Assembly: GCA_022824305.1 (NCBI GenBank)
Contig: JAJEAD010000097.1
Coordinates: forward strand, 62,001-126,000
Direction of reading: 5' to 3'
DNA length: 64,000 nucleotides
Origin: Gammaproteobacteria bacterium
Lineage (GTDB): Bacteria > Pseudomonadota > Gammaproteobacteria > HK1
Part shown: positions 29,379 through 37,767 of the stretch, piece by piece
Layout: every line of letters starts with the position of its first letter
How positions within the stretch are numbered: the stretch's first letter is position 1
The notes under the pieces: generated by a model
The model's input: only the letters and a program-made list of their open reading frames with translations
Told to the model about the DNA's origin: nothing
Database searches by the model: none
Program-made: the position numbers and the translations under genes

Positions 29379-31406
29379 ATGGCTAAGGCGGTGGAAGTCG
29401 GAAGGTCCTACCGGCTGAATCTGCCGGAAGAGCTCATCATCATGCTCCTGAACGAGCAGACCGGTTACTTTCACCAGGTTCCGGGCTGGGAGTTGAATTG
29501 CGCCGTAGTCGGCGCCGTGCTCGCGGAACTCTCCATCCGTTCGCGCATCGACACCGACGTGGACTCGCTGATCCTCGTGGACAGCACGGAAACGGACAAT
29601 CCTGTTCTGGATTCCATTCTGAAGCAGATCGCGGACGAGTCGCAGCCGCGCACCGCCCAGTACTGGATTGAGCGCCTTGCGGTTCAGGCGGAATCGATCA
29701 TCGATTCCACCCTCGAGCGTCTGGTGAACCTTAAGATCCTGAAGCACTATGACGGTGACTTCTGGACGCTGATTCCCACCAAGTGGTATGTGGACCTGGA
29801 CGGGAACACCGAGGAGCGCAACGTAGGACAGCTCATAAAGACGCGCATCAGAGAGGTCATCTTCACCGACTCGATTCCGGGTCCCAGAGACGCCATCGTA
29901 GTCAGCCTCGTCAATACCTGCGATGTCTTTCGATTCATATACGAGCTGGACGAACGCGCGGAGAATCGGATCAGGTTCGTCTGCAAGGTGGACCTGATCG
30001 GTCGCTCCATCGCGACTGCGGTCGAGCACAACATAGCGAGTCCCCTGCTCCGGCGCTCCCGTCTGGCCAAGGAAATCCCGAGCGTCGCGATGGGTCGACT
30101 GCTCTTCAATCCTCACCTGCGCAAGGGAAACCTCCCCGCGCTCCTTGCGGACCTGACCAGGCACTATGGTCCGGTGTTCGCGATCCGGGTGCCCTTCAAG
30201 CAACCCATGATTTTCGTCTCCGGACCGCGGATCAATCGCTGGGTGCACCGTCACGGACGCTTGCACCTTCGAGCCAGGGACTACTTCGTCGACTTCGAGA
30301 AGGTCTACGGCGCATCCGGCGTATTGCCGTCCCTGGATGGCGGCGATCATTTCCGGCTCAGGCGGATCATGTCGCCGGCGTACTCGCGGGCAAGGCTGGA
30401 AGGTCAGCTCGATCAGATCTTCCACTACGCCCGGAGGTCCATGGCGGACTGGAAGGCCGGTGACGCTCTTCCGGCAAGGCGGACGTGCCGGAGAATGATC
30501 AACGCCCAGATATCGCCGCTCGCCCTCAGTGTGGACTCGCAGGACCTGATCGACGAGCTGGTCAAGTACAAGGAACGTGCGCTGAACGTGCACATCGCGA
30601 AGGTTCTGCCAAAGTTCATGCTGAGCACCCCGGGGATGAGGCGCCGGGCGCATACCATCGACGCGCTGTTGGAGCGAGTTCAGAGCGTGCATACGCCGGC
30701 CCAGCGAAGCGGTTGCCCACGGGACCTGGCGGATGACTGGCTGGGCCTTCACGCCAGCGACCCGCAGCTGATGCCGGAGTCGAATCTGCGCTTTGCGCTC
30801 TCCGCGGCCCTGGTCGCCAGCGTATACCTGGGCGATGCGCTCAGCTTCGCGGTCTACGCCATGGCTGCGCAGCCGGCAATCTGCGAGAGGATCAGGAGCG
30901 AGGCGGACGCATTGTTTGGCGATGAGGACCCGGGCCGCGACGACTTCACGCCCGAGTCCATGGATGTGACCAGTCGCTTCCTGACAGAGTGCCTGAGGAT
31001 GTACCCGATTGTGCCGCTGTCCATGCGCGACGTCATGAATTCCTGTGTCGTGGAAGGCTACGAGTTGCCGGTGGGTTCACGGATCTTCATCGCCCAGACT
31101 GCGGCCCACTACATGGATGACGTCTTTCCGGAGCCATTCTCGTTCGATATCGATCGCTACCTGCCTCCCCGGAACGAGCACCGCAGTCCCGGCTACGCGC
31201 CATACGGACTGGGCACGCACCGGTGTCTGGGCTCTCGGTGGATGGATCTGCAGCTCGCAATCAACGTGCTCATGATCGCGCACTACTTCCGGGTCGAGCT
31301 GTCTCCCGCAAACTACGCGCTTCGCTTCAGCCCGCTTCCCTCGATGAAGCCGAGCAGCAACCTCAAGTTCCGCATCGCGGAGCAACGGCGGGAGCTGCCC
31401 GGCTGA
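29379..31406 (+). CDS. GPP34 (GOLPH3-like) domain fused to a cytochrome P450
   Basis: A single 675-residue frame joins two families. Residues about 8-225 follow the GPP34/GOLPH3 pattern: YRLNLPEELIIMLLNEQTGY, VVGAVLAELSIRSRID, NPVLDSILKQIADES, TAQYWIERLA, and STLERLVNLKIL. Residues about 245-675 are a P450: FLTECLRMYP gives E537-x2-R540, and YGLGTHRCLG gives the heme Cys616. The I-helix stretch (ASVYLGDALSFAVYAMA) lacks the usual acid-threonine pair. GOLPH3 proteins bind phosphoinositides and membranes in eukaryotes; bacterial GPP34 roles are largely unknown. A membrane-targeted lipid oxygenase is a natural inference. The start ATG 29379 follows GGGAGA by nine bases; ATG 29370 is too close to it. 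Confidence 0.85.
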   Translation: MAKAVEVGRSYRLNLPEELIIMLLNEQTGYFHQVPGWELNCAVVGAVLAELSIRSRIDTDVDSLILVDSTETDNPVLDSILKQIADESQPRTAQYWIERLAVQAESIIDSTLERLVNLKILKHYDGDFWTLIPTKWYVDLDGNTEERNVGQLIKTRIREVIFTDSIPGPRDAIVVSLVNTCDVFRFIYELDERAENRIRFVCKVDLIGRSIATAVEHNIASPLLRRSRLAKEIPSVAMGRLLFNPHLRKGNLPALLADLTRHYGPVFAIRVPFKQPMIFVSGPRINRWVHRHGRLHLRARDYFVDFEKVYGASGVLPSLDGGDHFRLRRIMSPAYSRARLEGQLDQIFHYARRSMADWKAGDALPARRTCRRMINAQISPLALSVDSQDLIDELVKYKERALNVHIAKVLPKFMLSTPGMRRRAHTIDALLERVQSVHTPAQRSGCPRDLADDWLGLHASDPQLMPESNLRFALSAALVASVYLGDALSFAVYAMAAQPAICERIRSEADALFGDEDPGRDDFTPESMDVTSRFLTECLRMYPIVPLSMRDVMNSCVVEGYELPVGSRIFIAQTAAHYMDDVFPEPFSFDIDRYLPPRNEHRSPGYAPYGLGTHRCLGSRWMDLQLAINVLMIAHYFRVELSPANYALRFSPLPSMKPSSNLKFRIAEQRRELPG

Positions 31407-31517: not shown

Positions 31518-32348
31518 CTACCGTGCGCGCTTGAGCGCCGTCTTGGTGAAGTCGCCGGCGTCCATGTCGGTGCCGAACTCGAACTCCGACCAGAGCAGCA
31601 TGGTGCTCTTGCCCGTGAGGTGGTTGGTCATGGATATCGTGCTGCCCCGCCAGAAGCGATCCAGGTACTTGTTGTAGTCCTCCACGAGCATCGTCTTGAG
31701 ATGCTCATCCCTGCGGTCAAAGTACTGAATCTGCATGGTTCGAAGCTCGTCCCGGTCGAGCCAGACGAGCTGACGGGAATACCCTGAATCCCGGCTTCGT
31801 GGCACGCGCTCCAGGACCGCGCATTCGAGGTCGCCGCAGGGTTCGTCCCGGAGGTAGCGGTGCGTGTACTTCTCGACCTCGACCGCTCCCATGTCCTCGT
31901 ACGAGAACTCGCTGCCCATGAAGGAGCCGGACTGCTTCGAGGAGCTGATGCGCTTGACCCGCTTCAGGGCCGGGAGGTAGAGCCACTGGTCGTCCGGCCC
32001 TTCCTTGTGGGCGTGAACGAGAAAGGCGGTTCCCTTGACGTCGCGGGGGCGGTCGAAGACGAACATGGTTCGATCGCCATCGCCCTCGACCTCGATCACC
32101 CTGAGCCGGAGCTCGCGTTCGCTCTCCTGTCCGCGCTTGTTGCGCAGGATCATGCGCAGATTCGAGGTGAAGTTGCCGAAGCCCTTCTGGCGTTCGCGGG
32201 CTTCGGTCGCAATCGAGAGCCCGGCCTCCTCCGCGCTGCTGTCCGCGAGGCTGGCGGAAGGCGCGACGATCCATGCGAGGAGACAAAGCAGGGCAGAGAA
32301 GGTGCCGTATGAGGCGGGACTTGAGCGGGGAAATGAGGCGCGAATCAC
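31518..32348 (-). CDS. LolA-like outer-membrane lipoprotein-sorting protein, RND-associated type
   Basis: The 276-residue exported protein has a signal peptide (hydrophobic FSALLCLLAWIVAPSASLA, then DSSAEE). The body follows the family found beside RND lipid exporters: RMILRNKRGQESERELR, VFDRPRDVKGTAFLVHAHK, DDQWLYLPALKRVKRISSSK and GSFMGSEFSYEDM. It probably binds a lipid or lipoprotein in the periplasm in a LolA-like barrel. GTG 32348 is chosen because AGGAGG precedes it at ideal distance. It belongs to the minus-strand run RND transporter, barrel, LolA-like, but an inverted-repeat element intervenes before it. Confidence 0.85.
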   Translation of the reverse strand: MIRASFPRSSPASYGTFSALLCLLAWIVAPSASLADSSAEEAGLSIATEARERQKGFGNFTSNLRMILRNKRGQESERELRLRVIEVEGDGDRTMFVFDRPRDVKGTAFLVHAHKEGPDDQWLYLPALKRVKRISSSKQSGSFMGSEFSYEDMGAVEVEKYTHRYLRDEPCGDLECAVLERVPRSRDSGYSRQLVWLDRDELRTMQIQYFDRRDEHLKTMLVEDYNKYLDRFWRGSTISMTNHLTGKSTMLLWSEFEFGTDMDAGDFTKTALKRAR

Positions 32349-32695
32349 CGCTTCCTCCTGTCGGTGGACATCAGCACGCTGGAATTGCGAGAACTCGACG
32401 GCGCCGCCCGGAGGTCGACTCCCGGATCGGCTCTTCAAGCACCTCCGCCGGGGCCTCTTGCTACATGCTAGTGTGCTGGACCTCAAATGGACAGGACTAT
32501 AAATCGATTGTAAATCAATAAAGTACGCGCGAAACAGCCCTCATGAAGTAGAGCTCAATTGCGTTCCAGCACACTAGCACAGTCCCCGCCACCGGCTTGG
32601 GGACGGCCTCGCAGCAGAAGAACGGGGAGACAGGGCGGCCGGCGACGGATGCGGAAGCGGGCGCGGTGGACCGGGCTTCGGGATTCCGGCGAGGC
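32349..32695. other. 347-bp gap in the transporter operon, with an inverted-repeat element
   Basis: The gap between the barrel protein and the LolA-like gene holds an AT-rich block with perfect 14-bp inverted ends (separate entry). The remainder is GC-rich and shows no gene-like frame. The AGGAGG site of the LolA-like gene is next to 32349. Confidence 0.6.
32467..32578. repeat. AT-rich element with perfect 14-bp inverted ends (MITE-like)
   Basis: GCTAGTGTGCTGGA at 32467-32480 is the exact reverse complement of TCCAGCACACTAGC at 32565-32578. The 84 bases between are strikingly AT-rich (ACTATAAATCGATTGTAAAT and on), unlike the GC-rich DNA around. The structure is that of a small non-autonomous transposon or a long hairpin. 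No obvious target-site duplication was found at its ends. It splits the RND/barrel genes from the LolA-like gene and may act as a terminator or carry a promoter. Confidence 0.7.
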
Positions 32696-33967
32696 TCAGA
32701 AGTTGTAGTCCAGGTTCAGTCCGAGAAAGCTGTCGCGGCGCACCGGGTAGATGAGATCGCTCTGGTCAATCCCCAGGTACACGATGCTCTCCGCATGCAG
32801 GGACCAGTTCTCGGAGAGCCGCCGCTTGAGCTCGGCGGTGAGGACGCGGCTTCCGTTGTCGAGGGACTCGAGGACGCTGAGAACGAACTCGGTGCTTTGC
32901 TCGTCGTTGAGACCCAGTCGCGCCGCGAGGAAGAGGTCGTTGTCGAAGGCGTTGGTTGCCCACCGGCCCCGTGAGTCACGAGCCCATTCGGCAAGGAGGC
33001 TGAGGTCGGCTTCCGAGTCCCACACGCCGTAGAACGTGTATTCGCCGCCCGCCACGAACGCGGCGTAGTCCTTCTCTTCGTAGACGAAGTGCTCGAGCAG
33101 CCGGCGGTTCTGCGCGCCGCTGCGGTGGATGGCTTCCAGCTTGAGAAGCCAGGGACCGGTGGTGAGCTGCATGTCCAGGCCGAACTGCCGGATCTGTTCG
33201 TAGTGCGGGGCCAGAACGAGCTCGGTCCCGGACAGGGCCGGGAGGAGAGTGGGGTCGCGGCTCGTGCCGTCGAAAACGCTGAGGCCCACGTCGAGCGGCC
33301 CGAAGCTGCCGCTGTACCGTCCGGCAAGATCGAGATGCCACTCCTCGGCCGATGATTCGTACGATGTCAGATCGTGGTCGACGACGAACGCGGAACGCTG
33401 GCGTCCGTGCCGCCCCGGATAGGTGCGTTCGCGGTGCCAGGTAAGCCCGAACAATTCGAGCGCGCCCCAGTCCCCGGCCCAGGTGACGTGGACCATGGGC
33501 TGGCCCATCTTGGTCTTCTCGTCGGGGTGCTCGACGAGGTCGGTCTGGTTGACGATGTCGACCAGGTGGCGCGACTCGACGACGCCCCAGAAGACCCGAT
33601 CCACCCCGAGGCGCAGCTCCCACTCGTCATCACCGATGTCGCCGTACACGAGAAAGTAGGCCTCGCGGAGGTCGGCATGGGTGCGCTCGCGGTCTCCGGC
33701 GTCGTACCTGAAGAAGGGGGTTACGGTAAGGCTCCTTCCCTCGTCGTCCTCCATGTAGGCGCTCAGTTCCGCCGCTACACCGCTCGAATGCGAGCGCTGA
33801 CCGGGATGTGCGGCACTCTGCGGGTAGATGCGGGTTTCCATGGAAAGACGACCGGAGACCTCGATCTCACCGGCAATCCCGCCAAAGCCGTGAGTCCCGG
33901 TTGACGTCACGGAAAGGAGCATCCCCAACGCGGCGGCCAGCGATCCGCGGATTCGCGCGCGCGTCAC
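32696..33967 (-). CDS. Predicted outer-membrane beta-barrel protein
   Basis: The 423-residue protein has a signal peptide (SLAAALGMLLSVTSTGTHG, with likely cleavage near GFGGIAGEIEV) and then alternating amphipathic strands such as YEDDEGRSLTVTPFFRYDAG-like, WELRLGVDRVFWG, and AFVAGGEYTFYGVWDSEADL. It ends in the outer-membrane signature FLGLNLDYNF with a terminal Phe. I do not assign it to a porin family; proteins of this kind often accompany RND lipid exporters with LolA-like partners. The start is GTG 33967. It lies 62 bases after the RND stop, in the same operon. Confidence 0.75.
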   Translation of the reverse strand: MTRARIRGSLAAALGMLLSVTSTGTHGFGGIAGEIEVSGRLSMETRIYPQSAAHPGQRSHSSGVAAELSAYMEDDEGRSLTVTPFFRYDAGDRERTHADLREAYFLVYGDIGDDEWELRLGVDRVFWGVVESRHLVDIVNQTDLVEHPDEKTKMGQPMVHVTWAGDWGALELFGLTWHRERTYPGRHGRQRSAFVVDHDLTSYESSAEEWHLDLAGRYSGSFGPLDVGLSVFDGTSRDPTLLPALSGTELVLAPHYEQIRQFGLDMQLTTGPWLLKLEAIHRSGAQNRRLLEHFVYEEKDYAAFVAGGEYTFYGVWDSEADLSLLAEWARDSRGRWATNAFDNDLFLAARLGLNDEQSTEFVLSVLESLDNGSRVLTAELKRRLSENWSLHAESIVYLGIDQSDLIYPVRRDSFLGLNLDYNF

Positions 33968-34029: not shown

Positions 34030-36357
34030 CTACTCGGCCGAAAGCGCGACGGGTTCTTCGGTCGGCCTGCTTCGGCCCTTGATCCCGTCGAGCACCATCA
34101 GCAAGGGGGGGAGAAAGAGAAAGTCCGCCAGCAAGGCGACGATGACCGTTATTCCCACCAGTGTCCCCAGCGCCTGGTTGTTCGTCATCCCCGATGCCCC
34201 GAAAACGAGGAACCCCAACGCGAACACGACGGTCGTCGCCGTCAGCGCCTTGCCCACCGTTCGGAAGGTGGATCGAACGGAGTCCGAGGGCGGCAGACCG
34301 CGTCTTCTCGCTCCGATGTACTTGGTCATGAAGTGAATCGTGTCGTCGACGATGATGCCGAACGCAATCGCGGTGACCACCGCTGCCGCCACTCCGATTT
34401 CCCCTACCACGTATCCCCAGAGCCCGATCGCCATGGCGGCGGGAATGAAGTTGGGGATCAGGCTGATCAGACCCAGGCGCACACTTCGAAACACGAAGAC
34501 CAGGAGCAGCGAGACGATGGCCATCGCGGTAATGGTGCCGATCAGCATCTTTTCTATGTTTCTCTGAATGGAGTGAGCGCCCACGATCGAAACGCCGCTA
34601 GCCGCGGTCTCCATGCCCGGGGCATGTTCCCGGAGCCAGGCCTGCGCGCGCTCGTCGAGATCCACCTTTTCCTTCGTGGACAGGCTCTTGAGGACCACCG
34701 TCATGCGTGATGCCGACCGCTCGACGTCGATGAGATTGTTCAGGTCGCGGCCGACCGGGAGGGAGAACTCGTAGAGCAGCAGATACTGGGCGGCGAGATC
34801 GGAGTTTTCGGGAATGCGGTAATGGTCCGGATCGTCGCCATGCAGGTTCTTGTTCAGCCGCTTCAGGATGTCGGAGAGAACAAGGACATGGGCCACCTCC
34901 GGCTGTGTCCGGTACCACTGCGCGAACGCGTCGATCCTGGCCAGATACTCGACGTCCGTGACGCCGCCCTCCCGTCCGGAGTCGAGGGAGTACTCGTAGG
35001 CTTCGAGGCCGGTGAAGTTCTCGCTCAGGAAGTCGGTCGAGCGCCGGAACTCATAGCTTTCGTCGAGAAGCTCCAGCCAGTTCTCCTTGAGCTCGATCCT
35101 CGAGATACCGGCGATGAGCACGACCGTAATGACGGCGAAGGAACACAGCAGGACCATGTGGCGCGAGACGACAAAGCGTCCGAACGCGTCGAAGAGATCG
35201 GTCCGGCCCGCGGGAGCGGGCCGGGCCCGCATGGGCACGAGCGACAGAAAGGCGGGCAGGAGGGTTACCGAGTAGAGAAATGCGCACAGCGAGCCGAAGG
35301 CGACGATGTTGCCCATCACCCGGAACGGCGGCATTTCGGAGAAGTTCAGACTGAGGAAGCCGATCGAGGTCGTGAGCGAAGTCAGAAAGACGGGCCAGGT
35401 GTTGACCTGCAGAGAGTGCGCGACCGCCTCTCTGCGCTCCATGCCCTGCCGCAGGCCCGACAGAACGATCTCTATGATGTGCACGGAGTGCGCGACGGTG
35501 ACCGCCATCAGCACGAAGAGCGCGGCTCCGCTCTCACCGTAGAGCTTCATGCCGGCCCAGCCCGCAAAGCCCATTGCCGTGGGGAGGACCGCGACCAGCA
35601 TCAGGAGGATGGCGACGGTTCCCCATACGGAGCGGAGAAGCAGCACGGCGACCAGCAGCATCGTGCCGAGTGCGGCAGGGCCGAGAATGCCAAGCTCTTC
35701 GTCGAGCGCATCGCGCATCGCGCGATTGAGGATGACATCGCCGGTCAGGTGGTAGTCGAAGGTGGAGTACTTCTGCCGGGCCGCTTCGGCGGTGTCGGAC
35801 AGGAAGTCGGTGACCTCCACCTTGGCCAGCTCGCGGTTCTCGGGAAGGGCGACGCTGACCACCAGGCCGGCCACGCGACCGTCGAGAGAGAGCAGGCGTC
35901 CGGCAACCTCCTCGGTGTCGAGCGCAATTCTCCGGATGCGGCTTATGTCTTCGTCGTCGAGGGAGCCGGCGTCATCGATGAGCGGCTCGACGATGAGCTC
36001 ATCTTCACGCCCTTCACTGTGGGAGTAGTTTGCAATGGAATCGACTCGCGTGACGTAGGGCGTGCGCCACAGCTCCTCGGTCAGCTCCTCGATGGCGAGA
36101 AGGGCTTCCCGCGTGAATATTGTGCCTTCCTGCGGTGCTACCGCAACGAGCGCGCTGTCCGAAAGAGCGTAGGTGTCTTCGAGCAGCTCCAGCGCAATCA
36201 GGTGCGGGTCGTCCTTGTTGAAGTGATTCCGGACATCGACGTCGACGAGCACGATGTATCGGGCGCCATAGGCGAGAGCGACCAGCACGAGCAGGGAAAG
36301 CACAATGGTGAGCCCCCGGCGCGCCAATACGAGCGATGTCCAGGACTCGAGGTTCAT
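34030..36357 (-). CDS. RND superfamily transporter, MMPL/HpnN-like
   Basis: This 775-residue inner-membrane protein has two repeats, each with one helix, a periplasmic loop of about 170 residues and five helices, twelve in total. The first helix is GLTIVLSLLVLVALAYG; later ones include AALFVLMAVTVAHSVHIIEIV and the GIIVDDTIHFMTKY motif, characteristic of the family. It is shorter than multidrug RND pumps (about 1,050 residues), which fits lipid and hopanoid exporters such as HpnN. The barrel and LolA-like genes follow. A Rieske oxygenase is transcribed in the opposite direction from the same intergenic region. Confidence 0.88.
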   Translation of the reverse strand: MNLESWTSLVLARRGLTIVLSLLVLVALAYGARYIVLVDVDVRNHFNKDDPHLIALELLEDTYALSDSALVAVAPQEGTIFTREALLAIEELTEELWRTPYVTRVDSIANYSHSEGREDELIVEPLIDDAGSLDDEDISRIRRIALDTEEVAGRLLSLDGRVAGLVVSVALPENRELAKVEVTDFLSDTAEAARQKYSTFDYHLTGDVILNRAMRDALDEELGILGPAALGTMLLVAVLLLRSVWGTVAILLMLVAVLPTAMGFAGWAGMKLYGESGAALFVLMAVTVAHSVHIIEIVLSGLRQGMERREAVAHSLQVNTWPVFLTSLTTSIGFLSLNFSEMPPFRVMGNIVAFGSLCAFLYSVTLLPAFLSLVPMRARPAPAGRTDLFDAFGRFVVSRHMVLLCSFAVITVVLIAGISRIELKENWLELLDESYEFRRSTDFLSENFTGLEAYEYSLDSGREGGVTDVEYLARIDAFAQWYRTQPEVAHVLVLSDILKRLNKNLHGDDPDHYRIPENSDLAAQYLLLYEFSLPVGRDLNNLIDVERSASRMTVVLKSLSTKEKVDLDERAQAWLREHAPGMETAASGVSIVGAHSIQRNIEKMLIGTITAMAIVSLLLVFVFRSVRLGLISLIPNFIPAAMAIGLWGYVVGEIGVAAAVVTAIAFGIIVDDTIHFMTKYIGARRRGLPPSDSVRSTFRTVGKALTATTVVFALGFLVFGASGMTNNQALGTLVGITVIVALLADFLFLPPLLMVLDGIKGRSRPTEEPVALSAE

Positions 36358-36693: not shown

Positions 36694-37767
36694 GTGGAAC
36701 GCACGACGAGCAGTTGCGACGGCACTTCCTCACTCCCTCCGTTTCCGGAAGGTTGGTATTTCATTGCCAGTCGCGAGCGTATCGAGACGGAGGCGCTGTT
36801 GCGGAAAACCTGGCTGGGCGAGGAGATCGTCGCCTGGTGCAACGGTGGTGGGGAGATCTGTGTTGCCGAAGCGTTCTGTCCCCACCTGGGCTCCGACCTG
36901 GGACCGGATGCCGGGGGGCGAGTGCGAAGCGGACGCCTGGTCTGTCCCTTTCACGGGTTCGAGTACGACGTTTCCGGTCAATGCGTGGCGACGCCCTACG
37001 CACCGCCGCCGAAGTCCGCGAGACTGAAGGTATTCCGGACCTGTGAAGTGCTGGGTCTCGTCTTCGCGTGGCGGGGCAGCGGCGGGCGGGCGCCGCAATG
37101 GGATCTTCCTGCGCCACGGCACGGCGGAAGTGACTGGAGTGCCATGGAGTTCTGGAGCGTGCGCTTTGCGGGGCATCCCCAGGAGACGACGGAGAACGCG
37201 GTCGACCTCGGGCATCTGCGTTACGTGCACGGCTATGGGAGTGTCAAGAGAGTAGGGTCCGTATCGGTGGAAGGCGCCTGGCTGAAGAGCTGCTTCGACT
37301 TCAGGCGAACCCGGTCCATAGCCGGTTTGAAGTGTTTCGAGTACGACGTCTCCGCCGTCACCCATGTTCATGGTCTGGGCTATTCGTTCGTCGAAGTTCA
37401 GGAGCGCTCCATCGGGATGGAAACCCGCCTGTGGGTGCTGGCGGCACCGGTCGACGGGAAGCTCATCGAACTGACGTTGGTCAGCCAGGTGCGTCACCTG
37501 GTCAGACCCAGGCATCCAATCTACGGAATGCGCTTCCTGCCCCTGCGACTTCGCACCCGAATCATGAACGGAATCATCATGGCCGCCCAGAAGCGGGACG
37601 TCATGCAGGACGTGGTCATCTGGGAGCGGAAGCGATACCGGCGCCGGCCGGCGCTTTGTGCTTCAGACGGCGAGATCGGCAGGTACCGGCGCTACTGCGA
37701 ACAGTTCTATCCGGAAGCTCAGGCGATCCACCGGCGCAGGGAGGAACGACTCGCCTTTCGCGCCTGA
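36694..37767 (+). CDS. Rieske oxygenase of the sterol/steroid-oxidising (KshA / DAF-36) type
   Basis: This 357-residue protein has the Rieske ligands C62-x-H64 and C84-x2-H87 in FCPHLGSDLGP and CPFHGFEYD. The mononuclear-iron ligands are Asp171, His174 and His179 in ENAVDLGHLRYVHGY. The sequences CPHLGSDLG, CPFHGFEY and ENAVDLGHLRYVH closely resemble cholesterol 7-desaturase (DAF-36/Neverland) and KshA-type enzymes. The C-terminal region carries a possible membrane-associated segment (YGMRFLPLRLRTRIMNGIIM). The start GTG 36694 is uncertain. Its divergence from the RND operon and the neighbouring GPP34-P450 point to an oxidised polycyclic or isoprenoid lipid. Confidence 0.82.
   Translation: MERTTSSCDGTSSLPPFPEGWYFIASRERIETEALLRKTWLGEEIVAWCNGGGEICVAEAFCPHLGSDLGPDAGGRVRSGRLVCPFHGFEYDVSGQCVATPYAPPPKSARLKVFRTCEVLGLVFAWRGSGGRAPQWDLPAPRHGGSDWSAMEFWSVRFAGHPQETTENAVDLGHLRYVHGYGSVKRVGSVSVEGAWLKSCFDFRRTRSIAGLKCFEYDVSAVTHVHGLGYSFVEVQERSIGMETRLWVLAAPVDGKLIELTLVSQVRHLVRPRHPIYGMRFLPLRLRTRIMNGIIMAAQKRDVMQDVVIWERKRYRRRPALCASDGEIGRYRRYCEQFYPEAQAIHRRREERLAFRA

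Follow-up and report, generated by a model that had tools for sequence, protein, structure and literature searches.

A GOLPH3-like domain fused to a cytochrome P450 in bacteria of several phyla

What use might a bacterium have for a GOLPH3-like (GPP34) domain joined to a cytochrome P450? The question is raised by a gene running from 29379 to 31406 on the forward strand of the window (the whole 64,000-nucleotide stretch of gammaproteobacterial DNA that was analyzed), its start matching the start of its relatives. The sequence-only reading saw one unbroken frame linking the two domains, and so it is: the 675 residues contain no internal stop, and there is no frame break between the halves. Pfam places GPP34 (PF05719) at residues 15-216 (29421..30026), with an E-value of 5.1e-30 and 105.5 bits against a curated cut-off of 29.1, and p450 (PF00067) at residues 245-645 (30111..31313), with an E-value of 9.1e-35 and 120.7 bits against a cut-off of 22.8. 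The ExxR motif (E537 and R540, 30987..30998) and the heme loop YGLGTHRCLG (31203..31232, containing Cys616) that had been read in the second half are present, all of these features lying on the forward strand. The predicted structure of the full-length protein (mean pLDDT 78.9, pTM 0.74) gave P450s as all 50 of the matches listed by Foldseek.

One might suspect that a frameshift or a misassembly had brought two genes together. That explanation is ruled out. Two peptide patterns taken from the window's family retrieved 293 related stretches from named GTDB contigs, and the fusion is intact (653-691 amino acids) in each of the best 80 of the 293, including records titled as chromosomes. The joining is therefore no accident of assembly, and the gene is a real fusion. 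Among the papers listed in searches of open-access full text (for GPP34 with P450, prokaryotic GOLPH3, GPP34 with sponge, and sponge sterol clusters), none describes it, in keeping with the earlier remark that none was known. Beyond the fusion itself, the most interesting features are its spread over phyla, its sterol-gene neighbors, and its altered I-helix.

The GPP34 half and the membrane

The first half folds like GOLPH3 and Vps74. The AlphaFold model of residues 1-225 (pLDDT 84.9) has eight PDB matches with E ≤ 0.001, all of them GOLPH3 or Vps74 entries. This shared fold is what speaks for the idea, advanced in the sequence-only reading, that GPP34 docks the oxygenase on a membrane through a headgroup resembling a phosphoinositide, in the way that GOLPH3 uses PI4P. 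The charge of the domain speaks against it. In an alignment of 87 rows (86 different proteins, one of them cut), net charge over the first 225 residues averages -17.9 (range -26 to -3, a tally in which the cut row, L020, takes in P450 residues), and such acidity counts against the binding of anionic headgroups. Three stand-alone GPP34s of the window's family are acidic as well (-10 to -13). Furthermore, the position opposite the PI4P-binding arginine of GOLPH3, as placed on the fusion by alignment, is V, I, A, or T in 85 of the 87 rows; the fusion does not carry a basic site like that of the PI4P-binding GOLPH3 and Vps74 proteins. Docking of this kind is very improbable.

The broader proposal, a P450 addressed to membranes, is plausible. 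In its favor are fusions of GPP34 to MFS transporters, frames in which GPP34 is followed by a region that looks hydrophobic, and lipid-trafficking neighbors. Against it, the protein has no evident membrane anchor, since the only stretch with a Kyte-Doolittle mean above 1.6 is the I-helix of the P450 (1.68). The MFS fusions (L012:1462-3351 and L025:1477-3387; G033, of the window's class) and the hydrophobic-looking C-terminal parts of L002 (from the window's own genome), L015, and L016 (from two relatives) would suit a membrane-proximal GPP34 module. In these last three and in L115, the region after GPP34 is about 200 amino acids long and looks hydrophobic, and Pfam recognizes nothing in that of L016 at E 0.001. 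A frame in G328 (L112) resembles a GPP34-MFS fusion, judged by eye.

The P450 half and its altered I-helix

Two sorts of P450 stand out as relatives of the second half. A profile of eight P450 halves finds CYP51 chains at the top of the PDB (6mi0/7jj1, E 7.3e-25), whereas a single-sequence search by phmmer ranks CYP184A1 (7wzl) first and CYP51 second (8e-20). Foldseek, given the full-length model, also ranks CYP184A1 (with oleic acid) first and the CYP51 domain of Methylococcus capsulatus second, with many BM3 fatty-acid P450s after them. Could the fusion be the CYP51 of the published sterol clusters? That candidate is rejected. The fusion has neither a close CYP51 match nor the I-helix Thr, and where a separate CYP51 adjoins it in L098 and L040, that protein matches solved CYP51s at about 1e-102, so the fusion and the neighboring CYP51 are two different P450s. 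In addition, the CYP51 alignment of PMC9531527 has 1698 nt, compared to 2028 nt in the fusion gene.

Within the I-helix LVASVYLGDALSFAVY (30810..30857, forward strand), Tyr483 (30825-30827) occupies the position held by Thr in a sister subfamily and in canonical P450s. Tyr is found there in 86 of the 87 aligned rows, and the canonical acid-alcohol pair (AGxD/ET), absent from the window's fusion, in only one, L018, though the best 80 loci lean toward the conserved Tyr subfamily because of how they were retrieved and chosen. Two other fusions, L128 (in G409) and L129 (in G465), carry the canonical pattern. A Tyr-type fusion (L062) is also present in G409, and another fusion with a high score in G465. 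Judged from their sequences, then, GPP34-P450 fusions form two subfamilies, a Tyr type and one with a canonical I-helix. The two halves co-vary in distance (Mantel r 0.618, matched by 0 of 2000 permutations, 83 rows).

Standard activation of oxygen by P450s is assisted by an acid-Thr pair in the I-helix, so the missing pair argues against the standard route. Perhaps the P450 half has ceased to be an oxygenase altogether, and Tyr483 has turned it into a sensor, a lipid-binding protein, or an isomerase. The absence of the pair in 86 of the 87 rows, together with its retention in L018, L128, and L129, is what one would cite for this. However, a P450 can be catalytically active without the Thr, and the heme Cys616, E537 and R540 of ExxR, and H324 and R328 of the C-helix are conserved in 87 of 87 rows, which indicates that the P450 half is not decaying. 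We consider the loss of oxygenase function unlikely.

Two side observations concern other P450 architectures. Solo P450s in G454 (L126) and G453 (L127) retain what resembles the last helix of GPP34, as if the domain had been lost, and an 872-amino acid frame in G375 (L111) appears by eye to be a P450 followed by cyclic-nucleotide-binding-like repeats.

Spread among genomes, phyla, and sponges

Including the fusion, four GPP34 genes are present in the genome that contains the window, and GPP34 occurs in 9 of the 55 genomes searched as relatives (own genome counted). Six further proteins have the architecture of the fusion: five from the window's family (one cut by a contig end) and L108, from another family of the class. 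Within the family, the fusion is carried by G008, G009, G013, and G016, the last with two copies. Among 369 genomes drawn from the class, the fusion profile matches 7 at E ≤ 1e-40, of which only the window's genome and G195 have it in full length; the four family genomes are not among the matches and apparently were not drawn. Of the 41 genomes in G403's class, 25 contain a match at E ≤ 1e-100, which in a few is partial or lacks GPP34. One GTDB locus, from a jk18x bin (L029), is identical to a member of the window's family (L024). Carriage of the gene on plasmids was considered and rejected, a search of 72,556 plasmid records having found nothing that matches over 80% of the protein.

The record titles of the best 80 of the 293 loci name ten phyla, some wrongly, and five loci name none. 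Misbinning or mislabeling accounts for part of this mixture. The records of L088 and L103 are misbinned or mislabeled (their RpoBs are 93% identical under two phylum names), and three loci labeled Gammaproteobacteria (L052, L066, and L069) have fusions very near one labeled Gemmatimonadetes. L032 and L034 have almost identical fusions under different phylum names, whether through misbinning, mislabeling, or very recent transfer. When proteins from 14 genomes are compared in 79 pairs whose records name different phyla (L056, which names no phylum, was left out), the fusions average 70.5% identity and the RpoBs 56.9%, and the fusion is higher in 78 pairs, the sole exception being L088/L103. All five cross-phylum pairs between chromosome-level records (Binatota, Gemmatimonadota, Chloroflexota) give fusion identities of 67-73% and RpoB identities of 53-58%. 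On a quick tree of the fusions, phylum labels need 15 changes, the least possible being 9, but since some labels are wrong, the tree overstates the mixing; rows from our own genome set were labeled Pseudomonadota by us. The 15 changes are thus an upper view, and the case for transfer rests on RpoB. A fusion more conserved than RpoB between phyla points to lateral movement of the gene. The alternative is that strong constraint alone explains the higher identity.

Many of the carriers come from sponges. Sample names in papers tie 20 of the 80 loci to sponges, 16 of them jk18x bins (PMC9531527) and 4 of them 277c/287ce bins (PMC8941161). For 25 more (RHO, COS, IRC, and APA), the initials fit hosts listed in PMC8163846, from which we infer a tie to sponges, as the bin names are absent from the main text of that paper. 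The other 35 loci fall outside both tallies. Cytochrome P450 is among the sponge-enriched domain entries of PMC5735121. The fusion may be biased toward sponge symbionts.

Neighboring genes and possible function

Downstream of the window's fusion, three genes lie on the reverse strand: a LolA-like carrier (31518..32486; Pfam LolA_like, E 2.6e-60), a putative outer-membrane protein (32696..33967; DUF1302 at E 0.007, below cut-off, and no NCBIfam match), and an MMPL/RND transporter (34030..36357). The last narrowly exceeds the cut-off for the Sterol-sensing domain (23.8 against 22.3 bits), while its NCBIfam matches (HAE3, HpnN, BstA, and others) are all below cut-off, HpnN being a better match than BstA and no sterol model reaching its cut-off. 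A Rieske oxygenase with a KshA_C (3-ketosteroid 9alpha-hydroxylase) domain and only a weak match to SdmA follows on the forward strand (36694..37767).

Relatives of 13 query genes were sought within 10 kb of the fusion, or to the contig end, in 81 loci (the 80 and the window), by tblastn (E ≤ 1e-15, 40% or more of the query covered). KshA-type Rieske oxygenases are found in 58 of the 81 loci (an earlier cluster of 63 loci includes some SdmA), FAD oxidoreductases in 42, SMT1-type genes in 41 and SMT2-type in 8, two types of ERG24 in 5 and 8, SE-OSC in 4, CYP51 in 4, SdmA in 5, and SdmB in 4. The window's other neighbors have relatives in 20 (MMPL), 17 (LolA-like), and 9 (outer-membrane protein) loci; MMPL-type transporters counted by clustering, with several clusters of antisense shadow ORFs set aside by eye, come to 45. 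A gene of sterol-biosynthesis type (OSC, CYP51, ERG24, SMT, SdmA/B) lies within 10 kb in 47 of the 81 loci, and such a gene or a KshA-type Rieske in 70; 34 loci lack the former and 7 lack all 13 queries, some loci being short. Where at least 5 kb is available on both sides, 53 of 56 loci have a Rieske, SMT, FAD oxidoreductase, ERG24, or MMPL gene.

Certain arrangements recur. An SMT-like gene is directly downstream of the fusion and convergent with it in 26 loci. An MMPL gene, a LolA-like gene, and the fusion are consecutive and share a strand at both loci of G016 (L130 and L131). In four of the 81 loci (L037, L040, L089, and L098), relatives of SE-OSC, CYP51, and ERG24 adjoin the fusion; L037 reads fusion, two SMT-like genes, SE-OSC, CYP51, ERG24, and a relative of SdmA. 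Neither that SdmA relative (E 1.7e-114) nor the SdmB in L065 (E 3e-90) reaches its NCBIfam cut-off, and the L037 cyclase scores above cut-off for TIGR01787, a general squalene/oxidosqualene cyclase model, though not for TIGR03463. The SMT-like genes exceed the Pfam cut-off for Sterol_MT_C, with no NCBIfam sterol model among the matches listed. Genome-wide, 29 of 56 fusion genomes (6 from our own set and 50 of the 80 loci) have ERG24 over cut-off and 38 have SMT. Within one class of 41 genomes, 20 have both fusion and SMT, 5 the fusion alone, 2 SMT alone, and 14 neither (Fisher p 2.8e-5), a table that ignores shared ancestry and whose 25 fusion genomes count some matches that are only partial, two interrupted by a stop, and one to a P450 alone.

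Given its occurrence in several phyla, the many carriers from marine sponges, and the sterol genes nearby, the fusion is probably a shared lipid-tailoring enzyme that often adjoins genes for making or altering sterols. The reading we favor, with a probability of roughly 0.5, is that of a membrane-proximal heme-thiolate enzyme acting in the tailoring of a sterol-like lipid. The helical GPP34 half would keep the P450 near the inner membrane or partner proteins, and the P450 half, distantly related to CYP51, would act on sterols either of the cell's own making or acquired from the host, serving as a second P450 distinct from the cell's CYP51. Its partners would be the KshA-type Rieske oxygenase, the SMT-like methyltransferase, the FAD oxidoreductase, and an RND/LolA lipid carrier. 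With Tyr in place of the I-helix Thr, the standard route, in which Thr helps to activate oxygen, is probably not the one this enzyme takes; oxidation assisted by the substrate is one alternative, a rearrangement or desaturation another. The gene would have passed between phyla living together, largely in sponges.

Does the P450 act on a sterol at all? It could be that its substrate is some other membrane lipid or metabolite (a fatty acid, terpenoid, polyprenol, or hopanoid-like lipid) and that sterol genes are merely frequent neighbors in islands that travel among symbionts. The first rank of CYP184A1 in both single-protein searches, its oleic acid, the BM3 enzymes behind it, and the transporter's preference for HpnN over BstA all lean that way, as does the window's own genome, in which ERG24, Sterol_MT_C, and SQHop_cyclase_C all find no match. 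(That assembly evidently has gaps, as it gives no rpoB match despite a stated completeness of 94.73%.) On the other hand, a profile of the P450 halves puts CYP51 first, the linkage to SMT, KshA-type Rieske, and ERG24 is seen in several phyla, and fusion and SMT co-occur in one class. A substrate other than a sterol is thus possible, if somewhat doubtful.

Returning to the sterol-like substrate, the window's fusion, which no ERG24, CYP51, and SE-OSC cluster adjoins, would act on an imported lipid, or on something else, there being no cyclase, SMT, or ERG24 match in the genome. The simplest reading for this organism is that it modifies a lipid taken up from outside, perhaps a host sterol, and the Rieske gene, along with the RND/LolA set between it and the fusion, suggests such uptake and modification.

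Whether host or symbiont makes the odd sterols of sponges is debated and is tied to a proposed earliest animal biomarker (PMC10070321, whose main text mentions P450 0 times). Symbiont SMTs and core sterol clusters have been published. It was supposed in PMC7074536 that other members of the holobiont modify a delivered sterol core, and in the available part of that paper no enzyme assigned to the task was found. A widely shared P450 adjoining SMT-like genes is a direct, expressible candidate. The boldest form of the idea can be put forward only tentatively: a new family of sterol-tailoring heme enzymes, with a GOLPH3-like module that presents lipids or seats the enzyme on membranes and with Tyr replacing the oxygen-activating Thr, may have spread laterally through many phyla of sponge symbionts and may supply a step in their hosts' unusual sterol chemistry.

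How does the fusion compare with known systems? It shares a fold with GOLPH3 and Vps74 but differs in being joined to an enzyme, in its acidity, and in lacking the PI4P arginine. Another bacterial GPP34 protein, SCO4440 of Streptomyces, is linked to peptidoglycan and wall-deficient cells (PMC12402492, which describes bacterial GPP34 as not previously described in prokaryotes); it stands alone, whereas the fusion gives bacterial GPP34 an enzyme context. The CYP51s of sponge symbionts (msbD of Melophlus, PMC7074536, and the "CSGs" of Ircinia, PMC9531527) have the same P450 fold, belong to the family nearest the P450 halves in the PDB by profile, and come from clusters with SMT, ERG24, SE-OSC, and SdmA/B, genes likewise near the fusion in some loci. 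Unlike them, the fusion has an N-terminal GPP34, no I-helix Thr, a far weaker CYP51 match, and, in 4 of 81 loci, a separate CYP51 beside it. Finally, the CYP51-ferredoxin of Methylococcus capsulatus (6mcw, 7snm), itself among the Foldseek matches, is also a bacterial sterol P450 within a fusion protein, but there the partner is a ferredoxin and here it is GPP34.
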